From positions 1-64,000 of IMG/VR virus record IMGVR_UViG_3300048625_000156: a stretch of DNA of 64,000 nucleotides; one strand, written 5' to 3'. Shown one piece after another: positions 2,557-26,580 of this stretch. Source of the stretch: a virus. The translations under genes and the position numbers were made by a program. The first letter of the stretch is position 1. The number at the start of each line of letters is the position of its first letter. The notes beneath the pieces were generated by a model. It was not told the DNA's origin. It worked only from the letters and a program-made list of their open reading frames with translations, and did no database searches.

Positions 2557-3078
2557 ATGCATGTATTACAATATATCGCAGTAGTTGCTGAAGACAGTGA
2601 CGAGGCTATGCAAAGTGTTGAGACCTTTCTCAATAGCGAAATGGGTGGCAATGACTATGCTACCAACTCATGGTATGACTGGTTTGTAATTGGTGGTGGT
2701 CGTTTCGTAGAAGGAGACCCTTACGAGAGTTCTCCTAACCACATTATCTCTGCGTATGAAGCAGGTAACGATATCCTTGTAAAGACTATCAATGATTGCT
2801 TAGATAGCCGCAAGCGTGAGTTTGCAGATTACCGAGCAAGTTTCGATAAGAGTGAGATTGACCTCAATGCCAAACTAGATAGTTACACTGGTAACACCGA
2901 TTACTCATTCGAACTCTACCCCCTCAAGAAGATGATTGACATGCTTCAAGGTAACTGGGATTATAACTCCTACTTCTTTGACATGGACAGTCAGTCAACC
3001 AACCCTAAGTATATCCTTGATAAGGCTGAGAAAGATAACAAAAACATTTTTCTTGTCCCTATTGACTTCCACTTCTAA
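2557..3078 (+). CDS. hypothetical protein, 173 aa
   Basis: ATG 2557 follows a purine-rich leader (CAAAGGAAAAGAA) and its own promoter. The protein opens MHVLQYIAVVAEDSDEAMQSV, suggesting an alpha/beta fold, and has a WYDWFVIGGGRF signature in its first third that I associate with conserved phage hypotheticals but cannot name. It is the second largest gene of the left arm. There are no membrane segments or metal motifs. A sigma-70-like promoter for the next gene overlaps its last codons. Confidence 0.75.
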   Translation: MHVLQYIAVVAEDSDEAMQSVETFLNSEMGGNDYATNSWYDWFVIGGGRFVEGDPYESSPNHIISAYEAGNDILVKTINDCLDSRKREFADYRASFDKSEIDLNAKLDSYTGNTDYSFELYPLKKMIDMLQGNWDYNSYFFDMDSQSTNPKYILDKAEKDNKNIFLVPIDFHF

Positions 3079-3090
3079 AACTGGTATAAT
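3062..3090 (+). promoter_or_regulatory. sigma-70-like promoter (TTGACT-17-TATAAT)
   Basis: TTGACT at 3062-3067 lies inside the end of the upstream gene; TATAAT is at 3085-3090 with TGG directly before it (extended -10). The conserved ATGTC spacer block is absent. It precedes the gene at 3117. Confidence 0.75.
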
Positions 3091-3116
3091 TGAGATAACC
3101 CTAAAGAAAGAGAACA

Positions 3117-3317
3117 ATGGCTACATTTGAAGTCACAGTAACCTATCACTTCGACACCACCTATGAGGTTGAGGCAGACAGTTACGAGCAAGCAGAATAC
3201 AAAGCCCTAGAAGAAGCAACCGAGTGGAAGCCCTACTCATCTGTAAAGGGCTACACTGAAGACTGGTATCAGGTAGAAGTTGAGCCAGCACACATTAGCG
3301 GAGAGTTGGACGACTAA
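3117..3317 (+). CDS. small acidic protein, 66 aa, paralogue of the 1511 product
   Basis: Starts MATFEVTVTYHFDTTYEVEA after AAAGAGAACA and ends at TAA 3315-3317, one base into the next ATG. The segment VEADSYEQAEYKALEEA matches the VEADSEAEAEAIGW segment of the 56-residue protein at 1511, so both probably share a small alpha/beta fold in which a strand is followed by an Ala/Glu helix. The role is unknown. Confidence 0.7.
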   Translation: MATFEVTVTYHFDTTYEVEADSYEQAEYKALEEATEWKPYSSVKGYTEDWYQVEVEPAHISGELDD

Positions 3318-3760
3318 TGTACACCACAATGACTTGGGAAGAGTTTGAGGCTACCTACAAGCCTATCCTAAATAAAATTACTAAGTATCCTAGCGATACA
3401 CAGTTTGCTTTCGAAACCTATGGCGAAGAACAGGAGTTTGTTCTTGCCCAACCAGAGCAGAATGTCTGGACTGAAGTAGACGGAGATGGTGGTTGCTACA
3501 TTATCAATGGCTTCCACTATGTCAATCGCATTCAGTACTATGTGTGTGAGGTTCCTAATGCCCTGCCGAAGTACCAAGAAGTCGTACTCCAAGTCTACAA
3601 AGACTGTGACGAATGTGGCTGTGCTGGTGGCGACGGTACTACTGATGACGGTGAGCCTTGTGCTAACTGTACTGACAAGTATGACGAATTCAACATCTAC
3701 CCTGAACGCTCAGACCTAATTGAAATCTTTGGAGAGGAATACGCAAATGAGCAAGTCTAG
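3317..3760 (+). CDS. hypothetical protein with CxxC zinc-finger region, 147 aa
   Basis: ATG at 3317 overlaps the stop of the previous gene. The N-terminal two thirds are acidic and aromatic. Residues around 95-120 carry CDECGCAGGDG and EPCANC, two CxxC pairs reminiscent of a DnaJ-type zinc ribbon; tails of this type are frequent in small phage proteins. The family is not named. It overlaps the next gene by 14 bases. Confidence 0.7.
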   Translation: MYTTMTWEEFEATYKPILNKITKYPSDTQFAFETYGEEQEFVLAQPEQNVWTEVDGDGGCYIINGFHYVNRIQYYVCEVPNALPKYQEVVLQVYKDCDECGCAGGDGTTDDGEPCANCTDKYDEFNIYPERSDLIEIFGEEYANEQV

Positions 3761-3926
3761 TTATCTAACCAACGAGGAACTCTTGGAGAACATCGCAAGG
3801 GACCTAACTGAAATGCATCGTGAGACTGGTATTGATTTAGCATACTGGGACACAGCCCTAGAGATTGTACGTCGCTTCTATGACGTAAAGGTTGATGTGA
3901 TTGTGAGGGACCGCCGTAATGTCTGA
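3747..3926 (+). CDS. hypothetical protein, 59 aa
   Basis: I start it at ATG 3747 (MSKSSYLTNEELLENIARDL), preceded by GGAGAGGAATACGCAA; an earlier in-frame ATG at 3720 lies deep inside the upstream gene. The predicted fold is mostly helical. It ends at TGA 3924-3926 and overlaps the next start by 8 bases. The family is not recognised. Confidence 0.6.
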   Translation: MSKSSYLTNEELLENIARDLTEMHRETGIDLAYWDTALEIVRRFYDVKVDVIVRDRRNV

Positions 3927-4125
3927 CTCAAGCAGAGCATTTGAACACCTTGCATTTGACAAGGAAAACTTTGAAACATGGGTAGATGAGACTGGACAAA
4001 CCGCCCTTTCTGATGTACAATGGGAGAAGGTAAAAGACGAGTTAGACGGACGAGTAGAGAACTACTTAGACGAAATGATTTACAATGTTGTTATTGACTT
4101 TAGAGAGGGTCACTTCGATGATTAA
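3919..4125 (+). CDS. hypothetical acidic protein, 68 aa
   Basis: ATG 3919 overlaps the upstream stop. The protein (MSDSSRAFEHLAFDKENFET) is acidic and predicted helical with conserved-looking Trp/Tyr positions. It ends in TAA 4123-4125 overlapping the next ATG (4118). It is part of the same coupled string as its neighbours; the function is unknown. Confidence 0.62.
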   Translation: MSDSSRAFEHLAFDKENFETWVDETGQTALSDVQWEKVKDELDGRVENYLDEMIYNVVIDFREGHFDD

Positions 4126-4477
4126 AGTACTAGACTTGAACATCTTCTATCGTGAAGACTGGGACGAGGATACGGACACTACCACATGGGCAGACACACT
4201 GACCATTGACGTATACATTCGTGAAGAGGACCAGCACGGTGTCCGCAATCGTGAGACAGGCATGTTGATTGAGTGTACTCCTGAAGAGACTGCAGTCATT
4301 GCTCCTAACTACCCTGAGAATGAATACGGCTCAGACTGGTGGGACTTTGCAGAGAACCTTCTAAAGTTTGCACCACCTCGTGTATCATCTCTAATTAAAT
4401 CAGTAGACGTAGACAAAGACGGTACAGACGTAACGTTGAATTATACTGACTCACCACCTGATGGGATGCTGTTTTGA
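4118..4477 (+). CDS. hypothetical acidic protein, 119 aa
   Basis: I start it at ATG 4118 (MIKVLDLNIFYREDWDEDTD), which has AGAGAGGG upstream; an earlier in-frame ATG at 4085 would overlap the previous gene heavily. It is strongly acidic with several Trp residues. It ends at TGA 4475-4477, directly before the hairpin-rich region. The family is not recognised. Confidence 0.65.
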   Translation: MIKVLDLNIFYREDWDEDTDTTTWADTLTIDVYIREEDQHGVRNRETGMLIECTPEETAVIAPNYPENEYGSDWWDFAENLLKFAPPRVSSLIKSVDVDKDGTDVTLNYTDSPPDGMLF

Positions 4478-7719: not shown

Positions 7720-8201
7720 GCTGCCTCATGTGCTACCCAGTAATACTTGCATGGCTCTTTACGGTCAGGGCAACAAGGGTTGCTCTCTGCTACCGAAGTA
7801 AAGAAGTCATAGTAATAGATAGGGTCTTTCTTGTATAGGTTTGCTTTGTGTGTAGTGGTAAGACGCTTCATGGTGATGTCGTTGGTATACCACTCTGGAG
7901 TATCAAAGCTCCAGTCAATACCGTGGACATTAAGAAGGTTGGTAAGATTTTCCATATTCTTGTCAGTCTTAATGCCACGCTTGTTTGCTTCACGAACCAT
8001 AGCCATAGTGTAGTCGAACAGGTTGTGCTCAAAGCCTCGCCACATCTTTACTGCTGGGTGGTTACGCCATCCTGCACGAGGATCTGGATTAGATAGAACC
8101 TTAAGAATTTGGTAGCACTCTAGGACTTGCTTGTTAAGACGTTTGTTGTCTAGGGCTTCTGCAGACTTGTCGAAGTCTTTGTAAGGTAAAAAGGTTTGCA
8201 T
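7716..8201 (-). CDS. pyrimidine dimer DNA glycosylase family (DenV-like), 161 aa
   Basis: The N-terminus MQTFLPYKDFDKSAEALDNK, followed by RLNKQVLECYQIL, is typical of the Pyr_excise family, whose T4 member (DenV) cuts the glycosidic bond at UV-induced pyrimidine dimers using its N-terminal amine. I start at ATG 8199-8201 (AGAGAGAACGT before it) because that puts the conserved MQTFLPY at the very N-terminus; a longer frame to 8261 runs into the promoter. Conserved elements follow: HPAVKMWRGFE and a Tyr/Trp-rich C-terminus. It probably repairs phage DNA after sunlight damage. Confidence 0.8.
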   Translation of the reverse strand: MQTFLPYKDFDKSAEALDNKRLNKQVLECYQILKVLSNPDPRAGWRNHPAVKMWRGFEHNLFDYTMAMVREANKRGIKTDKNMENLTNLLNVHGIDWSFDTPEWYTNDITMKRLTTTHKANLYKKDPIYYYDFFTSVAESNPCCPDRKEPCKYYWVAHEAA

Positions 8202-8232
8202 ACGTTCTCTCTCGTTTAATGGACCTATATAT

Positions 8233-8261
8233 ATTATACTGGATACTCGCTTGCTTGTCAA
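8233..8261 (-). promoter_or_regulatory. consensus sigma-70-like promoter (leftward)
   Basis: Read leftward: TTGACA (8261-8256), 17-bp spacer, TATAAT (8238-8233). It drives the glycosylase gene and those beyond it. Confidence 0.85.
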
Positions 8262-8274
8262 GCGTTTAATCCTC

Positions 8275-8478
8275 TTATTTACCGCCGAGCTTTTTAAACT
8301 CGTCTAAACTTATATTTGTCCACACTCTGTCAGAATCTGGTCCAAGCTTTTGCCATCTCAATATATATAGTTTGTCACAGTCACAGAGCCATACTGTATT
8401 ATTTGGTTTAAATAACTTTATAGGTAATTTGCATATATGTTGTTGACTCGTAAATACCCCAAGAATTCTGCCAGCCAT
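8275..8478 (-). CDS. hypothetical protein, 67 aa
   Basis: Reads MAGRILGVFTSQQHICKLPI. It is a small alpha/beta protein with several aromatic and Lys residues; no motif is recognised. Its start overlaps the stop of the gene upstream by one base, which supports co-translation. Confidence 0.6.
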   Translation of the reverse strand: MAGRILGVFTSQQHICKLPIKLFKPNNTVWLCDCDKLYILRWQKLGPDSDRVWTNISLDEFKKLGGK

Positions 8479-8717
8479 TATAGAATATTCCTATCATTAA
8501 TTAACCAGATAGTCTCACACATCTTACAGTCTTCATGTATTCCAGGACTTCTAAGGCTATGCCAATAAGGTTCTTGTAATAGTCGGATAATGCGTTTACG
8601 TTCTGCCTCAGCAGTCCAAGCATCATGTTTAGCCAGCCAAGTATCGAAGAACCATTCACTTTCTGCGTCATCGTCAGCATAAATTTTGCGTAGCGTTTCA
8701 GTGCTTAGTCCGCTCAC
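8478..8717 (-). CDS. small protein of the 'ERIIKLL' family, 79 aa, GTG start
   Basis: GTG at 8715-8717 has GGAGAGAACAA before it, the same ribosome site as its neighbours, and overlaps the preceding stop (GTGA); an earlier TTG at 8741 lies inside the upstream gene. The segment AERKRIIRLLQEPYW is shared in kind with the products at 8830, 9006 and 14028, so these are probably paralogues. A Cys pair (CKMC) follows. The function is unknown. Confidence 0.6.
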   Translation of the reverse strand: MSGLSTETLRKIYADDDAESEWFFDTWLAKHDAWTAEAERKRIIRLLQEPYWHSLRSPGIHEDCKMCETIWLINDRNIL

Positions 8718-8833
8718 TTGTTCTCTCCATTGATAGTCCAAAATGGGTTAGTCAGCACCGAGCCATTACTAAGAACGGCAACTCCCGAATGGGTGAAGTC
8801 GTCATAGGTCGCTGTCAAGATTGTGTCGTTCAC
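8714..8833 (-). CDS. hypothetical mini-protein, 39 aa, GTG start
   Basis: GTG 8831-8833 overlaps the upstream TGA, with GGGAGAGAACAA before it; the stop TGA at 8714-8716 overlaps the next GTG. It reads MNDTILTATYDDFTHSGVAV and ends INGENK. Coupling on both sides and the repeated ribosome-site pattern make it credible despite its size. The family is unknown. Confidence 0.5.
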   Translation of the reverse strand: MNDTILTATYDDFTHSGVAVLSNGSVLTNPFWTINGENK

Positions 8834-9009
8834 TTGTTCTCTCCCTTGATAAGAGCGATAAGGTTTGCTCGCTTTGCGTTGAAGTCTTTACTCCGACCAA
8901 ACGCCTTAGTAAACGCTTCACCATCTAGCAGTTTGATAATGCGTTCACGTTCTTCAGCTGTACCAGCAATCTTTCCAGCACCATAAGCAGAAATTGGGTT
9001 TACGCTCAT
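8830..9009 (-). CDS. small protein of the 'ERIIKLL' family, 59 aa
   Basis: ATG 9007-9009 overlaps the upstream stop (ATGA) and has GGGAGAGAACAA before it. It carries TAEERERIIKLLDGEAF and ends LIALIKGENK, both closely matched in the 9006-9254 product (VEEQERIIKLLEAE ... AIALIKGEKK). The shared head and tail show a family of duplicated mini-proteins in this operon. A helical hairpin is likely; the role is unknown. Confidence 0.65.
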   Translation of the reverse strand: MSVNPISAYGAGKIAGTAEERERIIKLLDGEAFTKAFGRSKDFNAKRANLIALIKGENK

Positions 9010-9254
9010 TTGTTCTCTCCCTCTAGTGGTGTTTCAAAATAGTCAAACTCTTGACCAGTTTGCTTCTTCTCCCCCTTGATAAGAGCGATAGCTTGTTCAT
9101 AAACAAACCAACTATCGTCAATCACGATTCGGAATTTATCACGCTCGGCTTCCAGCAGTTTGATAATGCGTTCCTGTTCTTCAACAGCACCATAAGCAAC
9201 ACAGTCAATACAACCTTTGTTGCCATCTGGTCTAGTGCAACGTTCGTGGCTCAT
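9006..9254 (-). CDS. small protein of the 'ERIIKLL' family with Cys-rich N-terminus, 82 aa
   Basis: Reads MSHERCTRPDGNKGCIDCVA, with three Cys that may bind metal, then VEEQERIIKLLEAERDKF and AIALIKGEKK, the segments shared with its neighbour. It overlaps the next gene by ATGA. Related sequences are frequent in actinobacteriophages, but I know of no assigned function. Confidence 0.65.
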   Translation of the reverse strand: MSHERCTRPDGNKGCIDCVAYGAVEEQERIIKLLEAERDKFRIVIDDSWFVYEQAIALIKGEKKQTGQEFDYFETPLEGENK

Positions 9255-9655
9255 TAGACTTCCTCCGCATAGTATGTTTCTTTTGTGCCATCATTCTGGA
9301 CGGTTATTGTATACCCCTCGTGAACGAGTTCGTGGATAGTCTTGTCCCTCTTGGTTTTAAATAACTTTGACTCAGCGTTCTTCTGCCACTCAATACCCCA
9401 GTCAGATCCTTCCTGAAAGCCTTCATCCTTGCCACTGTTAAAAGCATATACCTCAAGCTTATTAGCCTTACGCCACTTAAGAACAGGTCCACCACCAACA
9501 CAAGATTGTAGGTGGTCTCCAGTCATCTGTGCTTCAGGAATTTCACAATTGCAATCAACGAAAGTTCTATCAATTTCTTCCTCGTATTCCCCACAACAAT
9601 CAGCTTCTCCGCAACCCCATATAGTGTTGTCTTGTTTAACATAGTAAATTGTCAT
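9254..9655 (-). CDS. hypothetical protein, 133 aa
   Basis: MTIYYVKQDNTIWGCGEADC leads into a Cys-rich stretch (CCGEYEEE ... DCNCEIPEAQ) that could bind zinc; the remainder is alpha/beta with GSDWGIEWQ. No family is recognised. It overlaps the gene upstream by four bases. Confidence 0.65.
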   Translation of the reverse strand: MTIYYVKQDNTIWGCGEADCCGEYEEEIDRTFVDCNCEIPEAQMTGDHLQSCVGGGPVLKWRKANKLEVYAFNSGKDEGFQEGSDWGIEWQKNAESKLFKTKRDKTIHELVHEGYTITVQNDGTKETYYAEEV

Positions 9656-21024: not shown

Positions 21025-21055
21025 CATAAAAGTCCTGATCAGCAAGTAGTTTTTG

Positions 21056-21126
21056 CTCTCCCCCCTGGATTCGAACCAAGAATATCTGAGTCAAAGTCAG
21101 AGGTGTTGCCGTTACACTAAGGGAGA
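21056..21126 (-). tRNA. tRNA-Gln (anticodon TTG)
   Basis: 71 nt, acceptor TCTCCCT/GGGGAGA, anticodon loop CTTTGAC, T-loop TTCGAAT, discriminator G; CCA not encoded. Last gene of the leftward cluster; reads CAA. Confidence 0.92.
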
Positions 21127-21130
21127 TTGG

Positions 21131-21201
21131 CTTCCTTGTCTGGATTCGAACCAAAACTAACAGATTCAGAGTCTGTGATGCTACCGTTACATTACAAGGA
21201 A
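21131..21201 (-). tRNA. tRNA-Gln (anticodon CTG)
   Basis: 71 nt, acceptor TTCCTTG/CAAGGAA, anticodon loop CTCTGAA, discriminator G with encoded CCA. Reads CAG and is a close relative of the adjacent Gln gene. Confidence 0.92.
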
Positions 21202-21205
21202 ATGG

Positions 21206-21279
21206 TACACCTGGCTGGACTTGAACCAGCGACCTCATTCTTATCAGGAATGTATTCTAACCAACTGAAATACAGGTGT
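21206..21279 (-). tRNA. tRNA-Ile (anticodon GAT)
   Basis: 74 nt, acceptor ACACCTG/CAGGTGT, anticodon loop CTGATAA, discriminator A, encoded CCA. Reads ATC and ATT. Confidence 0.92.
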
Positions 21280-21283
21280 ATGG

Positions 21284-21354
21284 TGGACTTGCATGGTATC
21301 GAACCATGTTCCGCAGATTAAGAGTCTGCTGCATCACCTTAATGCTTCAAGTCC
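21284..21354 (-). tRNA. tRNA-Lys (anticodon CTT)
   Basis: 71 nt, acceptor GGACTTG/CAAGTCC, anticodon loop CTCTTAA, discriminator A, encoded CCA. Its T-loop is TTCGATA instead of TTCGAAT. Nearly identical in D-arm to the next Lys gene. Confidence 0.88.
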
Positions 21355-21358
21355 AGAG

Positions 21359-21429
21359 TGGGTCATCATGGTAACGATCCATGTTCCACGGATTAAAAGT
21401 CCGTTGCATCACCTTAATGCTTATAACCC
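21359..21429 (-). tRNA. tRNA-Lys (anticodon TTT), divergent T-loop
   Basis: 71 nt, acceptor GGGTTAT/ATGACCC, anticodon loop CTTTTAA, discriminator A, no CCA. The T-loop reads ATCGTTA, losing the conserved T54 and A58, so it may fold poorly or be decaying. Shares the D-arm of the CTT gene. Confidence 0.78.
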
Positions 21430-21433
21430 CTGG

Positions 21434-21518
21434 CGGAAATAGCAGGATTCGAACCTACGGTAGATTGTTCTACGACGGTTTAGCAAACCGTTGCCTTAAG
21501 CCTCTCAGCCATATTTCC
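21434..21518 (-). tRNA. tRNA-Ser (anticodon GCT)
   Basis: 85 nt with long variable arm, acceptor GGAAATA/TATTTCC, anticodon loop TTGCTAA, discriminator G, encoded CCA. Reads AGC and AGT. Confidence 0.92.
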
Positions 21519-21522
21519 ATTT

Positions 21523-21550
21523 GTAGTAGCAACTTATTAAGTTCTACTAC
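21523..21550 (-). other. hairpin between tRNA genes
   Basis: GTAGTAG ... CTACTAC with inner AACTT/AAGTT, a 12-bp stem with one internal mismatch pair. Probably a processing or termination signal in the tRNA transcript. Confidence 0.45.
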
Positions 21551-21625
21551 TTGAGACGTGACTCTCTTTTCTGCAGCATTCCTGCATCCGAATACCCCCC
21601 AAGTCCAGTACCATACAGGGGATCG

Positions 21626-21698
21626 TACTCGTGGTGAGACTTGAACTCACACTGTCTAGTTCCTAAGACTAGTGCCTCTGCCATTGGGCTACACGAGC
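21626..21698 (-). tRNA. tRNA with Leu anticodon TAG but short variable loop
   Basis: 73 nt, acceptor GCTCGTG/CACGAGT, anticodon stem CTAGT/ACTAG, loop CTTAGGA, discriminator A, CCA not encoded. The anticodon reads CTA (Leu), but the variable loop has only five bases, whereas bacterial tRNA-Leu normally has a long arm. Charging by LeuRS is therefore uncertain. Confidence 0.8.
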
Positions 21699-21702
21699 TT
21701 GG

Positions 21703-21787
21703 CGGAAGGTGGGGGAATCGAACCCCCAAGGCTTTTACACTCAACTGTTTTCAAAACAGGCTCCATCGCCAATTGGATTGACCTTCC
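21703..21787 (-). tRNA. tRNA-Ser (anticodon TGA)
   Basis: 85 nt with long variable arm, acceptor GGAAGGT/ACCTTCC, anticodon loop TTTGAAA, discriminator G, encoded CCA. The first anticodon-stem pair is a C-T mismatch. Reads TCA. Confidence 0.9.
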
Positions 21788-21788
21788 G

Positions 21789-21860
21789 TACCGATAAAAG
21801 GATTCGAACCTTTAACCTCTTGCTTCGTAGGCAAGTACTCTTCCATTGAGTTATATCGGT
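21789..21860 (-). tRNA. tRNA-Arg (anticodon ACG)
   Basis: 72 nt, acceptor ACCGATA/TATCGGT, anticodon loop CTACGAA, discriminator A, no CCA. Needs A-to-I editing (TadA) to read CGC and CGA as well as CGT. Confidence 0.92.
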
Positions 21861-21864
21861 CTGG

Positions 21865-21939
21865 TCCAGATAGGAGGATTCGAACCTCCGACCCCTCGGT
21901 CCCAAACCGAGTGCTCTAGCCAAACTGAGCTATATCTAG
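21865..21939 (-). tRNA. tRNA-Pro (anticodon TGG)
   Basis: 75 nt, acceptor CTAGATA/TATCTGG, anticodon stem CTCGG/CCGAG with loop TTTGGGA, discriminator A, encoded CCA. Reads CCA. Confidence 0.92.
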
Positions 21940-21943
21940 ACAG

Positions 21944-22016
21944 TGGATCTTGGGAGATTTGAACTCCCGACTTTCTGCTTGCAAAGCAGACACTCTACCA
22001 ACTGAGTTAAAGACCC
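21944..22016 (-). tRNA. tRNA-Ala (anticodon TGC)
   Basis: 73 nt, acceptor GGGTCTT/AAGATCC, anticodon loop TTTGCAA, discriminator A, no CCA. Lacks the G3-U70 pair at the normal place in perfect form (G3 pairs with T70), which is in fact the Ala identity element. Reads GCA. Confidence 0.92.
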
Positions 22017-22019
22017 TGG

Positions 22020-22091
22020 GGTGAACAGAGGGAATTGAACCCTCAACTCCTGGACCACAACCAGGTGTTTTACCATTAAACTATGCACACA
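22020..22091 (-). tRNA. tRNA-His (anticodon GTG)
   Basis: About 71 nt, anticodon stem CCTGG/CCAGG with loop TTGTGGT, discriminator C and encoded CCA. The acceptor GTGTGCA/TGTTCAC has one T-T mismatch. The -1 position is T, so the G-1 needed by HisRS is not clearly encoded. Confidence 0.85.
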
Positions 22092-22092
22092 G

Positions 22093-22172
22093 TCCCTGTT
22101 GTAAGAATCGAACTTACCATGCCATTGGCGACGGTTTTACAGACCGCTTCTCCACCTTGGAGAATAACAGGG
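22093..22172 (-). tRNA. tRNA-Tyr (anticodon GTA)
   Basis: 80 nt with a long variable arm as expected for bacterial Tyr, acceptor CCCTGTT/AACAGGG, anticodon loop CTGTAAA, discriminator A, no CCA. Confidence 0.9.
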
Positions 22173-22176
22173 TTGG

Positions 22177-22251
22177 TTGCGGAGGTGGGATTCGAACCCA
22201 CGACCTTGAGCTTATGAGGCTCCTGAGCTGACCTAGCTGCTCCACTCCGCA
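22177..22251 (-). tRNA. tRNA-Met (anticodon CAT)
   Basis: 75 nt, acceptor TGCGGAG/CTCCGCA fully paired, anticodon loop CTCATAA, discriminator A, encoded CCA. The 1-72 pair and the lack of three stacked GC pairs argue for an elongator; an Ile (CAT, lysidine) role cannot be excluded. Confidence 0.88.
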
Positions 22252-22281
22252 ATGCTTATTTATCTCTATTTAGTTTTCAAG

Positions 22282-22354
22282 TCCTACCAACTGGAATCGA
22301 ACCAGTAACCTTCTGTGCTTCAAACAGATGCTCTCCCAATTGAGCTATAGCAGG
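22282..22354 (-). tRNA. tRNA-Phe (anticodon GAA)
   Basis: 73 nt, acceptor CCTGCTA/TGGTAGG with wobble pairs, anticodon stem TCTGT/ACAGA with loop TTGAAGC, discriminator A, no CCA. Confidence 0.9.
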
Positions 22355-22357
22355 TGG

Positions 22358-22428
22358 CAAAGTATGTAGGAATCGAACCCACGCCAACAGGGTTGGAAGC
22401 TGTTGTGCTACCACTACACCAATACGAT
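22358..22428 (-). tRNA. tRNA-Trp (anticodon CCA), imperfect fold
   Basis: 71 nt. Counting from the D-arm (GTGT/GCAC) gives anticodon stem ACAGC/CCTGT with one C-C mismatch and loop TTCCAAC, so the anticodon is CCA. Discriminator G and an encoded CCA fit Trp. The acceptor ATCGTAT/ATACTTT has two mismatches. A Gly (TCC) reading would need a nine-base loop. Confidence 0.7.
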
Positions 22429-22639
22429 ATGATTGTTAGGAATTCACTAGATTTGTGTGATTTGGGATGTTATTGAATTATGGAATTAAGCTGGGATTAA
22501 ATCGACCACGCACGATAAATAGGGGCGTGTGACAGCTGACTAAATCGCTGCTTCATAACGCCTCCTTGATGTTTCATCGTGAATTCCATAACTATATTGT
22601 AGCATATATTTTATGCTTGTGCAAGTATTTCTTGCATCG
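22429..22639. other. spacer inside the tRNA cluster with promoter and possible mini-ORF
   Basis: A 211-bp gap without a tRNA. Leftward it holds TTGCAC, 17 bp, TACAAT (TACAAT at 22601-22596), then a 19-codon frame (22556-22497, starting MKQRFSQ) preceded by AAGGAGG at ideal spacing. GGAATTCAC and GTGAATTCC form an inverted repeat. Confidence 0.5.
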
Positions 22640-22711
22640 TACCCCCAAGGAGAATTGAACTCCTGTTACCAAATTGAAAATCTGGGGTCTTGACCACTAG
22701 ACGATGGGGGC
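22640..22711 (-). tRNA. tRNA-Glu (anticodon TTC)
   Basis: 72 nt, acceptor GCCCCCA/TGGGGGT, anticodon stem CCAGA/TTTGG with loop TTTTCAA, discriminator A, no CCA. Reads GAA. Confidence 0.9.
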
Positions 22712-22715
22712 GTGG

Positions 22716-22788
22716 AGGTGTAGGTGAGAATCGAACTCACACTGAATAGTTTTGCAGACTACCACATTTGCCATTCTGTCACAACACC
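22716..22788 (-). tRNA. tRNA-Cys (anticodon GCA)
   Basis: 73 nt, acceptor GGTGTTG/CTACACC with one mismatch, anticodon stem GTAGT/ACTAT with loop CTGCAAA, discriminator T (the Cys identity base), encoded CCA. Confidence 0.9.
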
Positions 22789-22792
22789 ACTG

Positions 22793-22864
<72 letters not shown>

Positions 22865-22865
22865 A

Positions 22866-22916
22866 AGTGTAGGATCTTGGGTAATCACTCCCTCACCTAC
22901 TGAGTTATTGCTACAT
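22866..22916 (-). pseudogene. decayed tRNA remnant related to tRNA-Ala
   Basis: The plus strand keeps GGATCTTGGG and ACTGAGTTA, blocks identical to the 3' acceptor/T-arm edge and the D-arm of the tRNA-Ala gene at 21944-22016, but the anticodon arm between them is lost. About 50 nt remain of 73. Confidence 0.5.
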
Positions 22917-23031
22917 CGGTAACTAACCGCTGAGAGGATCTGACCTCACAAGGTAAGTTTATAGATACTTACATCTGGCAATATTATAACATAGAATTGC
23001 CCCACTACGTATAGGCGATTAATTCCTATAG
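22917..23031. other. spacer with tRNA-like fragments and a -10 element
   Basis: Contains GAGG-ATCTGA-CCTC, like a damaged T-arm, and a GTAAG/CTTAC stem like an anticodon arm. TGTTATAAT (extended -10, leftward, 22991-22983) could restart transcription of the downstream tRNAs. Confidence 0.35.
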
Positions 23032-23104
23032 CGTCTCCGATGGGATTTGAACCCACGATCCCCTGGCTGACAACCAGGTGCTTTAACCACTAAGCCACGG
23101 AGAC
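23032..23104 (-). tRNA. tRNA-Asp (anticodon GTC)
   Basis: 73 nt, acceptor GTCTCCG/CGGAGAC, anticodon stem CCTGG/CCAGG with loop TTGTCAG, discriminator G, no CCA. Confidence 0.92.
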
Positions 23105-23183
23105 TTGGGCACTTGGTCAGACTTTGTGCCTGACTGTAAAGGCACGAAATAGCTGCATACACAACCGTCTCTAGCAAGTACCG

Positions 23184-23254
23184 AGCGAATAGGGAGAATC
23201 GAACTCCCATAGTCTGCTTGGAAGGCAGAAGTTTTACCACTAAACTATATTCGC
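23184..23254 (-). tRNA. tRNA-Gly (anticodon TCC)
   Basis: 71 nt, acceptor GCGAATA/TATTCGC, anticodon stem TCTGC/GCAGA with loop CTTCCAA, discriminator T as usual for Gly, no CCA. Reads GGA. Confidence 0.92.
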
Positions 23255-23418
23255 AGTTGAGGTATGCAGACAATCAATCCCATACCTCTGGGTCTTTTCC
23301 TAAGACGAGCGACCAACTCCGAACCGATAACGAGAGATTCCTACACGCTTACTGTGTCGCTGTAAGAGCGTTCATTTGTCCGAAATGAAACGGTTGTGAT
23401 AGTGATTAGCTATCATCG

Positions 23419-23504
23419 CTCCCAGAGTAGGAATCGAACCTACGACGCTCTTGCGAGAACAGATTAACAGTCTGGCGGTACCAGCCAACAGTACCCCTCT
23501 AGGA
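23419..23504 (-). tRNA. tRNA with Asn anticodon GTT and long variable arm
   Basis: 86 nt, acceptor TCCTAGA/TCTGGGA, D-arm GGTAC/GTACC, anticodon loop CTGTTAA, discriminator G, no CCA. The 1-72 T-A pair, G73 and GTT anticodon fit tRNA-Asn, but a CTC-GCAA-GAG variable arm makes it class II, a shape normal only for Ser, Leu and Tyr in bacteria. Confidence 0.8.
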
Positions 23505-24187: not shown

Positions 24188-24230
24188 CCCTCTCTAGGTT
24201 GTATGTCTATTATACAGGAACTAGAGAGGG
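24188..24230 (-). terminator. terminator stem enclosing the next promoter's -10
   Basis: CCCTCTCTAG (24188-24197) and CTAGAGAGGG (24221-24230) pair perfectly; read leftward the stem is followed by TTTTC. Its loop contains TATAAT (24214-24209) of the promoter with TTGACA at 24237-24232, 17-bp spacer. Confidence 0.7.
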
Positions 24231-24237
24231 CTGTCAA
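24209..24237 (-). promoter_or_regulatory. consensus sigma-70-like promoter (leftward)
   Basis: TTGACA, 17 bp, TATAAT. Transcripts begun here lack the first arm of the surrounding hairpin, so they should escape the terminator that stops upstream transcription. Confidence 0.85.
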
Positions 24238-24245
24238 CTATATTT

Positions 24246-24482
24246 TTAGTTGTCTTCTGGTGTGTTTTCTACGAATGCTGCGTCAATTTCCTCTTCAGAA
24301 AGCTCCCCATCATTTAGGTAGCCACGAGCAAGGTCTTCGACAACATTAGCAATCCCCATAACACCTGCTAGAATAGCAGTCTGCAATGTGTCAATACCAA
24401 TGATAGCACCAGCACCGACAGTTGTCAATGCTGAAACAAGGAATAGTGCAAGCATACGCAATGCGATTTTCTTAACGTTCAT
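24246..24482 (-). CDS. holin-like membrane protein, 78 aa
   Basis: MNVKKIALRMLALFLVSALT and TVGAGAIIGIDTLQTAILAG form two hydrophobic helices; the tail is acidic (LSEEEIDAAFVENTPEDN). Size, two helices and charged end are typical of class II holins. It overlaps the membrane gene before it (TAATG-like) and ends the operon started by the PA14 protein. Confidence 0.65.
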   Translation of the reverse strand: MNVKKIALRMLALFLVSALTTVGAGAIIGIDTLQTAILAGVMGIANVVEDLARGYLNDGELSEEEIDAAFVENTPEDN

Positions 24483-24685
24483 TATTTGTCCTCCTTATCT
24501 TTTCTTAGATTAATTGTGAGCAACCATATTACTGTTGACCACACGATTGCAATTCCTACGATATCTCTTGCGGATCCTGTGAGGGTTAGCCAAGCGATGA
24601 AGAAACCAAGTAGGGTGAATACCTGGTTTATGCTTTCTTTAAAGACATCCCTGATCCATTTAAGTACTGATTTAATTATTCTCAT
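24482..24685 (-). CDS. holin-like membrane protein, 67 aa
   Basis: MRIIKSVLKWIRDVFKESIN is amphipathic and basic; VFTLLGFFIAWLTLTG and IVGIAIVWSTVIWLLTI are two membrane helices, followed by a Lys/Asp tail. It lies between the PA14 protein and another holin-like protein with overlaps on both sides. The two may act as holin and antiholin or partner membrane proteins. Confidence 0.62.
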   Translation of the reverse strand: MRIIKSVLKWIRDVFKESINQVFTLLGFFIAWLTLTGSARDIVGIAIVWSTVIWLLTINLRKDKEDK

Positions 24686-26496
24686 TTTATCCTCCCTACC
24701 ATCATGCTTGCAATTTGTGACACGATGATCACAGGCACGATGACTTCTTGTGCTTTCTCTCGCTGATCGTCAGACATGTCTAGACCTGCTTGAGAAACGT
24801 TCTCTAATACTTGTGCTACAGCCTTGCCTGGCTCTGTGAGTAACTCTCCTACGAATGCTGCAGTTTCTGCTAGCCCTTCCCCTACCGCACCAATTAGGGC
24901 TACTGGGTTTGTTAGGACCGCCAGCGTTTCTTCAGCCTGAATTTCTGTTACAGCATCTGCAACTGTATATGGCAATACGCCTGTATCATTTAATGCAGCT
25001 CGTTCTTCTAACTGCTCCTGTGCCTGTTCTACGGCTGTTGCTGGGGCTTCTGGGGTATCTGTTTTGTTTGGTTCTGGTAACGGTTCAACGATAGTTTCTG
25101 TTGGCTCTTCAATAGGTTCCTCGGTCTGCGTAGGCGTAGGTGGTAACTCTCGGAATGGTGGAATGGCTTCCAGTTCTGATTGAGCGACATTTAACTCCTG
25201 TTGTTTAGTTTGGACATCTACAGATGCTAGTTCAATTATACCTGCTTTTTCAATTTGAGAGTTTAAGGATTCATTGTAATCTGCCTGAGCCTGATCTCTA
25301 TTGCTGACTGCAGATGCTAAATTATTTTGTTTTCTATCTAGAGAATCTTGAGCAGAAGTAACTGCTGGAAGTAGTTCAGGATTGTGAATCATTGGTGCTG
25401 AGGCATTCTCATCTGGTACAAGAATGATACGCTCTTCTCTTCTGTATCTGATCTCATCTCTATAAAAGATCACCTCGTCATAAACTGTAATTTCGTCATA
25501 GACTATTTGCTCTGTATATACAATCACTTCTTCGTATGTTGTTTGTGTTGTTACTTGTTGGAAGGCTGATGCTGGAATGATTTCATAACCGTACCCTGGT
25601 TTTGCCCAGTATGCCCACACATTTGCACCACCACCATTCTCATAAAACCATAGCGTAAACTCGTGACTTCCTTCTGCTAAATATACCGATGTGCTTGATC
25701 CACCACCACCCTTGTCATACCAGTCATTGATAATTGTGTTGCCATCTATAATTATTCTCACACCGTCGTCTCCAGGGGCGTAGAAGCCATATGTTCCACT
25801 TTGGGGGATAGTAATGTACCCTGTGAATTTAACTATTGTGTCTTCAGATAGCCATGTATTGAGGATATAGCCACCACCCCATTGGTAGTTAATGTTTCCA
25901 ACTGTTTGTGTTGATACTAACCTATCTTCACCTGGGAGTGGTGGTGCGTTATTATACCCTGCCATGTTGTAAATTTTTGCTGTAAGTCCGCTAGATATTA
26001 CCTTGGTATTTGTGTGAGTAATTAGTTCTGTATGTGGGACTAGAATGGTTCTTGGTACTAACTCTGTTCTTGCAACTAATTCGGTGTATGGGACCTGAAC
26101 TGTGTATGGTACATCGTATTGCTCTACCTGTTCTTTATTAGGTCTCACCCATTCTGGATCTGATATTAGGGCTGTGTTGTACTCTGTTTGTGCTGAGGCA
26201 AGGAGAGCCTGAGCTTCTAGTACTGCCTGTTCTTTATTTTGAACATCAGCGATAAGATTGTCTAGGGTTGTTTTGTTAGAGATTACTCGTGCATCTGCTA
26301 CGCTCTTTGCTTCAACGGCTGCGTCATATACCCCCTGAGAAGTCACCAGAGCGTCCTGGGCAGCATTAACTACAGCCTGAGCCTGAGCCACAAGGGCATC
26401 GTGCTCTGCTCTAGTTTCGGCTTGTGCTGACGATGCGAAGGCAAGTGGGGCTAGTGCTAGGAATACAACTATAAATGCGTATAATGATTTCTTTAT
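24682..26496 (-). CDS. exported PA14 'lollipop' membrane protein, 604 aa, apparent ATA start
   Basis: Order of parts: signal peptide with AQA-E cleavage site (KKSLYAFIVVFLALAPLAFA, residues 2-21, then ASSAQA), an Ala/Gln/Val-rich helix (about 30-115), four hexapeptide repeats of the TELVAR/TELVPR kind (138-163), a PA14 beta domain (about 172-313; PGDDGVRIIIDGN visible), six hexapeptide repeats of the YxExIV kind (321-355), a second helical coil, a Pro/Glu/Thr-rich linker and a hydrophobic C-terminus (VIVPVIIVSQIASMMV). The coding frame needs a start at 26494-26496, which is ATA, because the stop just upstream leaves no ATG, GTG or TTG and GAGGAG lies 8 bases before it. It overlaps the holin-like genes. 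It probably displays PA14 outside the host membrane; the ligand is unknown. Confidence 0.75.
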   Translation of the reverse strand: MKKSLYAFIVVFLALAPLAFASSAQAETRAEHDALVAQAQAVVNAAQDALVTSQGVYDAAVEAKSVADARVISNKTTLDNLIADVQNKEQAVLEAQALLASAQTEYNTALISDPEWVRPNKEQVEQYDVPYTVQVPYTELVARTELVPRTILVPHTELITHTNTKVISSGLTAKIYNMAGYNNAPPLPGEDRLVSTQTVGNINYQWGGGYILNTWLSEDTIVKFTGYITIPQSGTYGFYAPGDDGVRIIIDGNTIINDWYDKGGGGSSTSVYLAEGSHEFTLWFYENGGGANVWAYWAKPGYGYEIIPASAFQQVTTQTTYEEVIVYTEQIVYDEITVYDEVIFYRDEIRYRREERIILVPDENASAPMIHNPELLPAVTSAQDSLDRKQNNLASAVSNRDQAQADYNESLNSQIEKAGIIELASVDVQTKQQELNVAQSELEAIPPFRELPPTPTQTEEPIEEPTETIVEPLPEPNKTDTPEAPATAVEQAQEQLEERAALNDTGVLPYTVADAVTEIQAEETLAVLTNPVALIGAVGEGLAETAAFVGELLTEPGKAVAQVLENVSQAGLDMSDDQREKAQEVIVPVIIVSQIASMMVGRIK

Positions 26497-26511
26497 TTCC
26501 CTGTCTCCTCT

Positions 26512-26541
26512 GTTAGTGAATCACTAACAAAACTAGTATAT
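26512..26541 (-). promoter_or_regulatory. extended -10 promoter with 17-bp palindromic operator
   Basis: TGATATACT (TATACT at 26541-26536) forms an extended -10 without a clear -35. GTTAGTGA and TCACTAAC with one base between them (26512-26528) form a perfect palindrome between the promoter and the ribosome site of the PA14 gene. Confidence 0.6.
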
Positions 26542-26562: not shown

Positions 26563-26580
26563 GGGCTACCGAAGTAGCCC
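26563..26580 (-). terminator. UUCG terminator with U-run
   Basis: GGGCTAC, TTCG loop, GTAGCCC, followed by TTTTCTTTT leftward. It ends the RNR operon after nrdF. Confidence 0.9.

Follow-up and report, generated by a model that had tools for sequence, protein, structure and literature searches.

Genomic context and gene organisation

The window analysed here, a stretch of 64,000 nt, is part of a viral record that spans 94.8 kb. Its terminase and DNA polymerase display 55 and 57 % identity, respectively, to those of Streptomyces Stanwilliamsviridae phages, and this kinship to actinobacteriophages makes an actinobacterial host likely. With regard to Stanwilliamsviridae synteny, an annotated counterpart is absent from the two stretches compared.

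The locus consists of three genes on the minus strand. Gene 1 (24682..26496), which opens with an ATA codon, specifies a predicted exported PA14 hairpin-stalk protein of 604 aa. The start of gene 2 (24482..24685) overlaps the gene 1 stop, and its product is a 67 aa partner with two transmembrane (TM) segments; gene 3 (24246..24482), connected to gene 2 by a further start/stop overlap, gives a 78 aa two-TM protein that is weakly holin-like. The interval 24682–26496 had been put forward in the original prediction and its coordinates are retained, with the strand set to minus, where 604 open residues are found; a plus-strand reading was dropped, as it carries 40 stops. Together with its own terminator, −10 element and leader, gene 1 forms a unit located between nrdB and a tRNA cluster, approximately 18 kb from the structural genes. 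The cluster itself contains 21 tRNA genes (21055–23504, minus strand) and separates the stalk operon from M23/VanY-like lysin genes. A perfect TTGACA-17-TATAAT promoter is also present at 24209–24237 (minus strand), flanked by the inverted repeats CCCTCTCTAG...CTAGAGAGGG.

Every element originally named for this protein, i.e. signal peptide, helices, hexapeptide arms, PA14 and hydrophobic C-terminus, can be located in the gene 1 product (all coordinates in this paragraph are on the minus strand). Sequence and hydropathy place the signal peptide, IKKSLYAFIVVFLALAPLAFASSAQA, at residues 1–26 (26419..26496), followed by an N-terminal coiled-coil arm at residues 27–108 (26173..26418), over which AF2 draws a helix from residue 29 to 108 with a pLDDT of ~85–96. 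An N-side beta-arm of 50 residues (120–169; 25990..26139) is composed of hexapeptides, including ...VPYTVQVPYTELVARTELVPRTILVPHTELITHT..., and has a 47-residue match on the C-side. The PA14 domain occupies residues 170–312 (25561..25989), as delimited by Pfam, Foldseek and invariant columns, and leads into the C-side beta-arm, YEEVIVYTEQIVYDEITVYDEVIFYRDEIRYRREERIIL, likewise made up of hexapeptides (residues 313–359, 47 residues; 25420..25560), for which AF2 predicts ladders that mirror those of the N-arm. Beyond this lie a C-terminal coiled-coil arm (residues 373–443; 25168..25380; AF2 helix, pLDDT ~83–96) and a spacer rich in Pro and Glu (residues 444–485; 25042..25167), recognised from its sequence and with a pLDDT below 50 over residues 455–485. 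The chain ends in a membrane segment with a basic end (residues 582–604; 24685..24753; hydropathy 1.97), the hydrophobic C-terminus being AQEVIVPVIIVSQIASMMVGRIK and the final residues RIK. This segment is the last part of a conserved C-terminal domain that bears a G.DM....RE.A motif ahead of the hydrophobic stretch and the basic end. Hydropathy agrees with the C-terminal anchoring of the stalk that had been suggested, and the orientation of this segment is assigned from hydropathy and charge only.

Leader and start codon usage

The intrinsic terminator of the upstream nrdB (26563..26580, minus strand), which is conserved in relatives, sets that gene apart from gene 1. It is followed by a −10 element, TATACT (26535..26540, minus strand; TATAAT in relatives), and, beginning 7 nt past this box at the inferred transcription start, by an inverted repeat of the form GTTAG...CTAAC (GTTAGTGATTCACTAAC; 26512..26528, minus strand), which may represent either a 5′ mRNA hairpin or an operator. 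A hairpin forms at this position in all seven of the distinct leaders folded, and the Shine–Dalgarno sequence stays free. In most close relatives the repeat is kept, with both of its sides changed.

A Shine–Dalgarno sequence, AGGAG (26505..26509, minus strand), stands 8 nt ahead of the start codon assigned to gene 1, ATA (26494..26496, minus strand), and ATG, GTG and TTG are all absent from the N-terminus of this gene. An internal GTG start, corresponding to a product of 569 aa, was rejected because the signal peptide would be lost. The same leader occurs in most close relatives, with ATT as the start; indeed, within the clade that carries beta-stalks the start is mostly ATT, and each member read so far has a predicted ATT or ATA. 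Such a codon accompanies a strong Shine–Dalgarno sequence in L002–L007, L020, L021, L116, L128 and L129, with an in-frame ATG upstream offering an alternative start in L006.

When the start codons of genes 1 and 2 are assigned by one rule across all loci, ATG begins gene 1 in only 3 of the 51 loci that have an assigned start after deduplication, other loci using TTG, ATT, ATA, GTG, ATC or CTG, whilst gene 2 starts with ATG in 28 of 34 of the same loci (Fisher p 2e-13, a value that ignores the kinship of the loci). A poor start codon behind a strong Shine–Dalgarno sequence suggests selection for low output, and the avoidance of AUG starts by the gene 1 family would be fitting for a protein of low copy number.

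Mirrored arms and structural predictions

The mirror symmetry around PA14 that had been noted from the window alone goes far beyond chance, and the lengths of the two arms change together across relatives. Homologues with the same mirrored layout were indeed found, namely 21 loci with beta-arms in which N- and C-side lengths stay in step, at 38/36, 43/42, 50/47, 56/54 and 92/90 residues. The coiled-coil arms behave similarly: most loci have 65/62 residues and a single locus 62/62, and the window and L114 group reach 86/83 by way of a 21-residue coiled-coil insertion in both arms. Perhaps the clearest case is that of L004 and L005, the PA14 domains of which are 97 % alike, yet each arm differs by exactly 54 residues. 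In the arms compared, one side never changed alone by more than 3 residues. Correlations between arm lengths exceed an r of 0.99, a figure inflated by the kinship of the loci; the PA14 tree points to some four or five arm-length events of independent origin. Candidate paired indels in the coiled-coil subfamilies (14 and 14 residues for L010/L011; 37 and 42 for L011/L058) have poor anchors and were not counted.

Structural predictions for the window protein return the helices at residues 29–108 and 373–443 with a pLDDT above 83, as well as short ladders that mirror each other. For the core of L005, strands at 73–162 and 310–399, of 90 residues each, are drawn in the register i+j=472, which is the same as that of the paired helices 3–61/411–459. 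The ribbon of L005 has a pLDDT of 35–80 and comes from a nine-sequence alignment, and repeats may in themselves lead AF2 to draw a ribbon. Given this low confidence, the exact pairing of strands is a prediction; that the arms pair also has their matched lengths behind it. Of the structure first envisaged, the helices and mirrored ladders are therefore recovered, but the exact ribbon pairing is of low confidence; the single chain that runs up and back as a paired stalk tipped by PA14 finds support in both the lock-step arm lengths and the AF2 models. Using standard rises per residue, the rod ahead of PA14 is estimated at ~28 nm for the window protein and ~39 nm for L005. A hairpin-stalk architecture, with display of the gene 1 product at the cell surface, is very probable.

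The PA14 domain

PF07691 matches the gene 1 product with an E-value of 2.3e-11 and 44.1 bits, against a gathering cut-off of 24, and in Pfam PA14/GLEYA are the only families matched by this protein. The PA14 model likewise matches 13 of 13 aligned family members, and in 13 diverse members residues D243-D244-G245 are invariant. This DDG aligns to that of RsgI3 and of 6m8m, and may be the acidic motif of a putative calcium/sugar site. Foldseek matches for the domain in the PDB are 6qe7, 6x7z and 6m8m, and Pfam, PDB sequence and Foldseek comparisons all place RsgI3 and sugar-binding adhesin domains as the nearest PA14s. This proximity, together with the invariant DDG, makes surface display of a putative glycan-binding domain the best reading of the sequence.

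The small membrane-protein genes

Hydropathy reveals two hydrophobic segments in each of the products of genes 2 and 3. The partner gene begins 4 nt or less from the end of gene 1 in 64 of 66 loci that are complete at the 3′ end, and its product, of 56–67 aa across loci, has two TM segments. A second small two-TM gene usually follows, with gene 3 in its strict form present in 46 loci. A further connection is found in phage DSL-LC01, where an exported protein of 944 residues, devoid of PA14, has a terminal segment that resembles gene 2 (21.5 bits; the highest score among 1000 shuffles is 8.2) and contains an FN3-like stretch resembling that of L012/L014. This fusion, along with the overlap of the genes, is evidence that the products of genes 1 and 2 work together.

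The neighbours had been described as holin-like, and two small two-TM proteins are certainly present, but such matches to holins as were obtained fall short of the threshold (phrog_443, E 0.045). A gene 3 homologue compared with the Pfam r1t holin similarly stays below threshold (E 0.13; 12.8 bits against a cut-off of 26.9), and genes 2 and 3 of the window match neither r1t nor, significantly, any other Pfam family. Gene 3 also matches phrog_26427, labelled 'nuclease' (E 1e-23), a label that is probably a misannotation because the gene 3 protein consists of two TM helices.

Distribution and neighbourhood of the family

A profile scan confirmed at least 578 matches in viral contigs through PA14, 80 of which were kept, and the pooled set examined comprises 83 phage loci. 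PA14, the C-terminal domain and gene 2 are retained family-wide. The stalk varies, with beta-arms in the group of the window and long coiled coils elsewhere; other loci lack an N-arm altogether and instead carry FN3 domains and Pro-rich spacers after PA14. Such variability fits a stalk that would act as a spacer carrying PA14 away from the membrane. Full-length structural matches were obtained in BFVD for A0A6J5L639 and A0A6J7WSJ6, both from uncultured Caudovirales phage, which align over the arms and PA14 at 34–37 % identity and apparently belong to the same family, albeit annotated by domain only, as 'PA14 domain containing protein'. Amongst isolated phages, the matches to gene 1 are confined to PA14 and come from Pelagibacter phage HTVC008M and from an uncultured faecal phage, and GenBank phages yielded nothing that matches the C-terminal domain (from L010) or the gene 2 homologue (from L015). 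No paper describing the gene 1 family was found, nor anything relevant in the literature on PA14 in freshwater actinophages.

Of 84 neighbourhoods, 42 contain CHAP/M23 lysin-like genes at a distance of up to ~6 kb. Several other genes for exported proteins are found around the family. A subtilase-like protease is encoded ~5 kb or less downstream of gene 1 in L047 (11161–12279; Pfam S8, 1e-11) and 16 other loci, and an S-layer-like protein of 340–508 aa, usually upstream of gene 1, in L028 (4260–5288) and 28 other loci. In L112 an NlpC/P60 gene with an export signal (8735–9370) sits on the plus strand amid minus-strand structural genes. L092, from a Rhodoluna MAG, encodes a protein (7743–8645) with the order signal peptide, PA14 and LADTG, a sortase-type anchor, and is a bacterial surface PA14 resembling the phage domain; it falls outside the stalk family and was set aside as a host homologue.

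Proposed function and alternatives

It is proposed that gene 1 would yield a low-copy protein that leaves the cell via the host Sec pathway. The chain would climb first as helix and then as beta-strand, form PA14, and return as beta-strand and then helix, so that a single polypeptide would build a rod of two strands, about 30 nm long, that bears PA14 at its far end. The Pro-rich spacer and C-terminal membrane segment would, in the presumed orientation, root this rod in the cytoplasmic membrane, and the 67 aa two-TM protein of gene 2 may sit beside the anchor and serve the stalk as a platform or partner. In this way the PA14 domain and its DDG would lie outside the wall, where they could bind sugars. 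As to purpose, it may serve as an adhesin for glycans on the surface of nearby cells of the same type, so that debris or susceptible cells stay near the lysing cell ('sibling capture'). Taken as a whole, purpose included, the statement that the displayed hairpin-stalk PA14 is a low-copy glycan-binding adhesin for sibling capture is a tentative one, and the most likely of those considered. It is ranked first because of the variable-spacer stalk, the seemingly low copy number and the independent occurrence of an exported PA14 in HTVC008M; counting against it, the lysins nearby and the small neighbouring genes may be a sign of lysis instead. The sequence elements, the paired arms, the conserved operon and the conserved avoidance of AUG can be followed in the genomes themselves; orientation, partnership in the membrane, sugar binding and the preference for an adhesin over its rivals are inferred.

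Those same neighbours could mean that the stalk reads glycans or particles outside the cell, with its membrane segment and gene 2 delaying or triggering the holin-like proteins much as T4 RI and antiholins do. A translationally coupled operon with two small two-TM proteins, the gene 2-like domain fused to an exported protein in DSL-LC01, the lysin-like genes near half of the neighbourhoods and weak start codons that suit a regulator would all accord with such a sensor of lysis timing, as would actinophage lysis cassettes in which two small membrane proteins cooperate (PMC13056207). The holin matches are sub-threshold, however, arm lengths ranging from none to more than 700 residues are odd for a sensor based on force or geometry, and the M23 and VanY-like lysins of the window lie beyond the tRNA cluster, outside the operon, leaving this a somewhat unlikely explanation. 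Superinfection exclusion, whereby the exported PA14 would occupy or shield glycans that serve phages as receptors, is compatible with a surface location and with exported S-layer-like genes near 29 loci; a phage S-layer protein has been proposed to act in exclusion (PMC9004378), and known Gram-positive exclusion proteins are, according to the abstract of PMC3952083, surface lipoproteins. Masking needs many copies, though, where non-AUG starts suggest few, and PADLOC returned no similarity to its listed exclusion or defence families, so that exclusion is judged unlikely. Lastly, the protein could belong to the virion, where, as a decoration or fibre, it would use PA14 to attach to the next host. 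Tail fibres do include hairpin needles that bind through their tips (T4 gp37), and further phage proteins carry PA14; the signal peptide and C-terminal membrane segment, the independent transcription unit at some distance from the structural genes, and the pairing of gene 1 with membrane-protein genes nevertheless render a virion component highly improbable.

Phages are usually viewed as acting on the host from inside or by means of the virion. Here, a large family from relatives of actinobacteriophages, hitherto annotated merely as PA14-domain, seems to equip the infected cell, while still alive, with a long rod that binds sugars. If so, infected aquatic actinobacteria would bear a virus-made adhesin or sensor, which would matter for the timing of lysis, for exclusion and for the way in which phages find hosts in dilute water. 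In the lock-step arms, nature provides a clear example of a hairpin protein whose two sides have to co-evolve in length, and the conserved non-AUG start is a test case for translational control in phages. What appears to be new is a stalked lectin-type surface protein in phages; the layout originally read from the window seems to be right, and its function is one that we infer.

Comparison with known systems

In the original prediction, no described system was known to share this layout, which stands amongst the phages searched; hairpin stalks that end in a lectin-like domain are familiar from streptococcal antigen I/II adhesins, and a needle running up and back from the tip of T4 gp37. RTX adhesins (MpIBP/MpAFP, Lap) and RsgI3 sensors share with gene 1 the PA14 fold, the DDG and the nature of an extracellular surface protein, but are bacterial adhesins or anti-sigma sensors, and we know of no RTX adhesin or RsgI3 protein with mirrored arms or a phage operon. 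In streptococcal antigen I/II the chain runs out and back as a stalk with a lectin-like apex and C-terminal anchoring; it is a bacterial protein that relies on helix/polyproline pairing, a different tip domain and a sortase anchor. The gene 1 product resembles it in layout, with N- and C-terminal halves paired and a binding domain at the tip, but is not a member of that family, having no Pfam sequence match to it and ending in a membrane segment with RIK rather than a sortase motif. The tip of the T4 long tail fibre, gp37, is a beta needle that likewise goes up and back and carries a binding head at its end; it is a trimeric virion fibre devoid of signal peptide, membrane anchor and PA14, whereas the gene 1 product carries both a signal peptide and a C-terminal membrane segment.

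Genes 2 and 3 recall the actinobacteriophage LysF1a/LysF1b cassette, in which two small membrane proteins act together (PMC13056207); the likeness, two such proteins per cassette, is by description only, and no exported stalk protein figures in the abstract of that paper.

The closest parallel for a phage-encoded exported PA14, apparently displayed on the infected cell, is HTVC008M (L132), where a protein at 2833–4158 combines a signal peptide, PA14 and curlin-like repeats, and is encoded beside CsgF, CsgG and CsgB. Unlike gene 1, this PA14 is joined to curlin-like repeats, is associated with CsgG/CsgF secretion and belongs to a Gram-negative host, with neither stalk nor gene 2; conversely, Pfam finds no CsgG/CsgF or curlin repeats in genes 1–3 of the window. 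For the pelagiphage curli cluster, 'sibling capture' and exclusion have both been proposed (PMC7029224, PMC9599517), in papers that make no mention of PA14, although, in the related curli phage Melnitz, infected cells were not seen to clump (PMC9004378). Viewed together, the two systems raise a possible, if rather doubtful, broader picture: a widespread phage surface-display system, made up of an exported hairpin-stalk lectin and its two-TM partner, with starts kept weak by selection, may capture hosts for progeny or pass an extracellular signal to lysis, and alongside the PA14-curlin of pelagiphages would reflect a general strategy of pelagic phages, in which the infected cell is armed with PA14.
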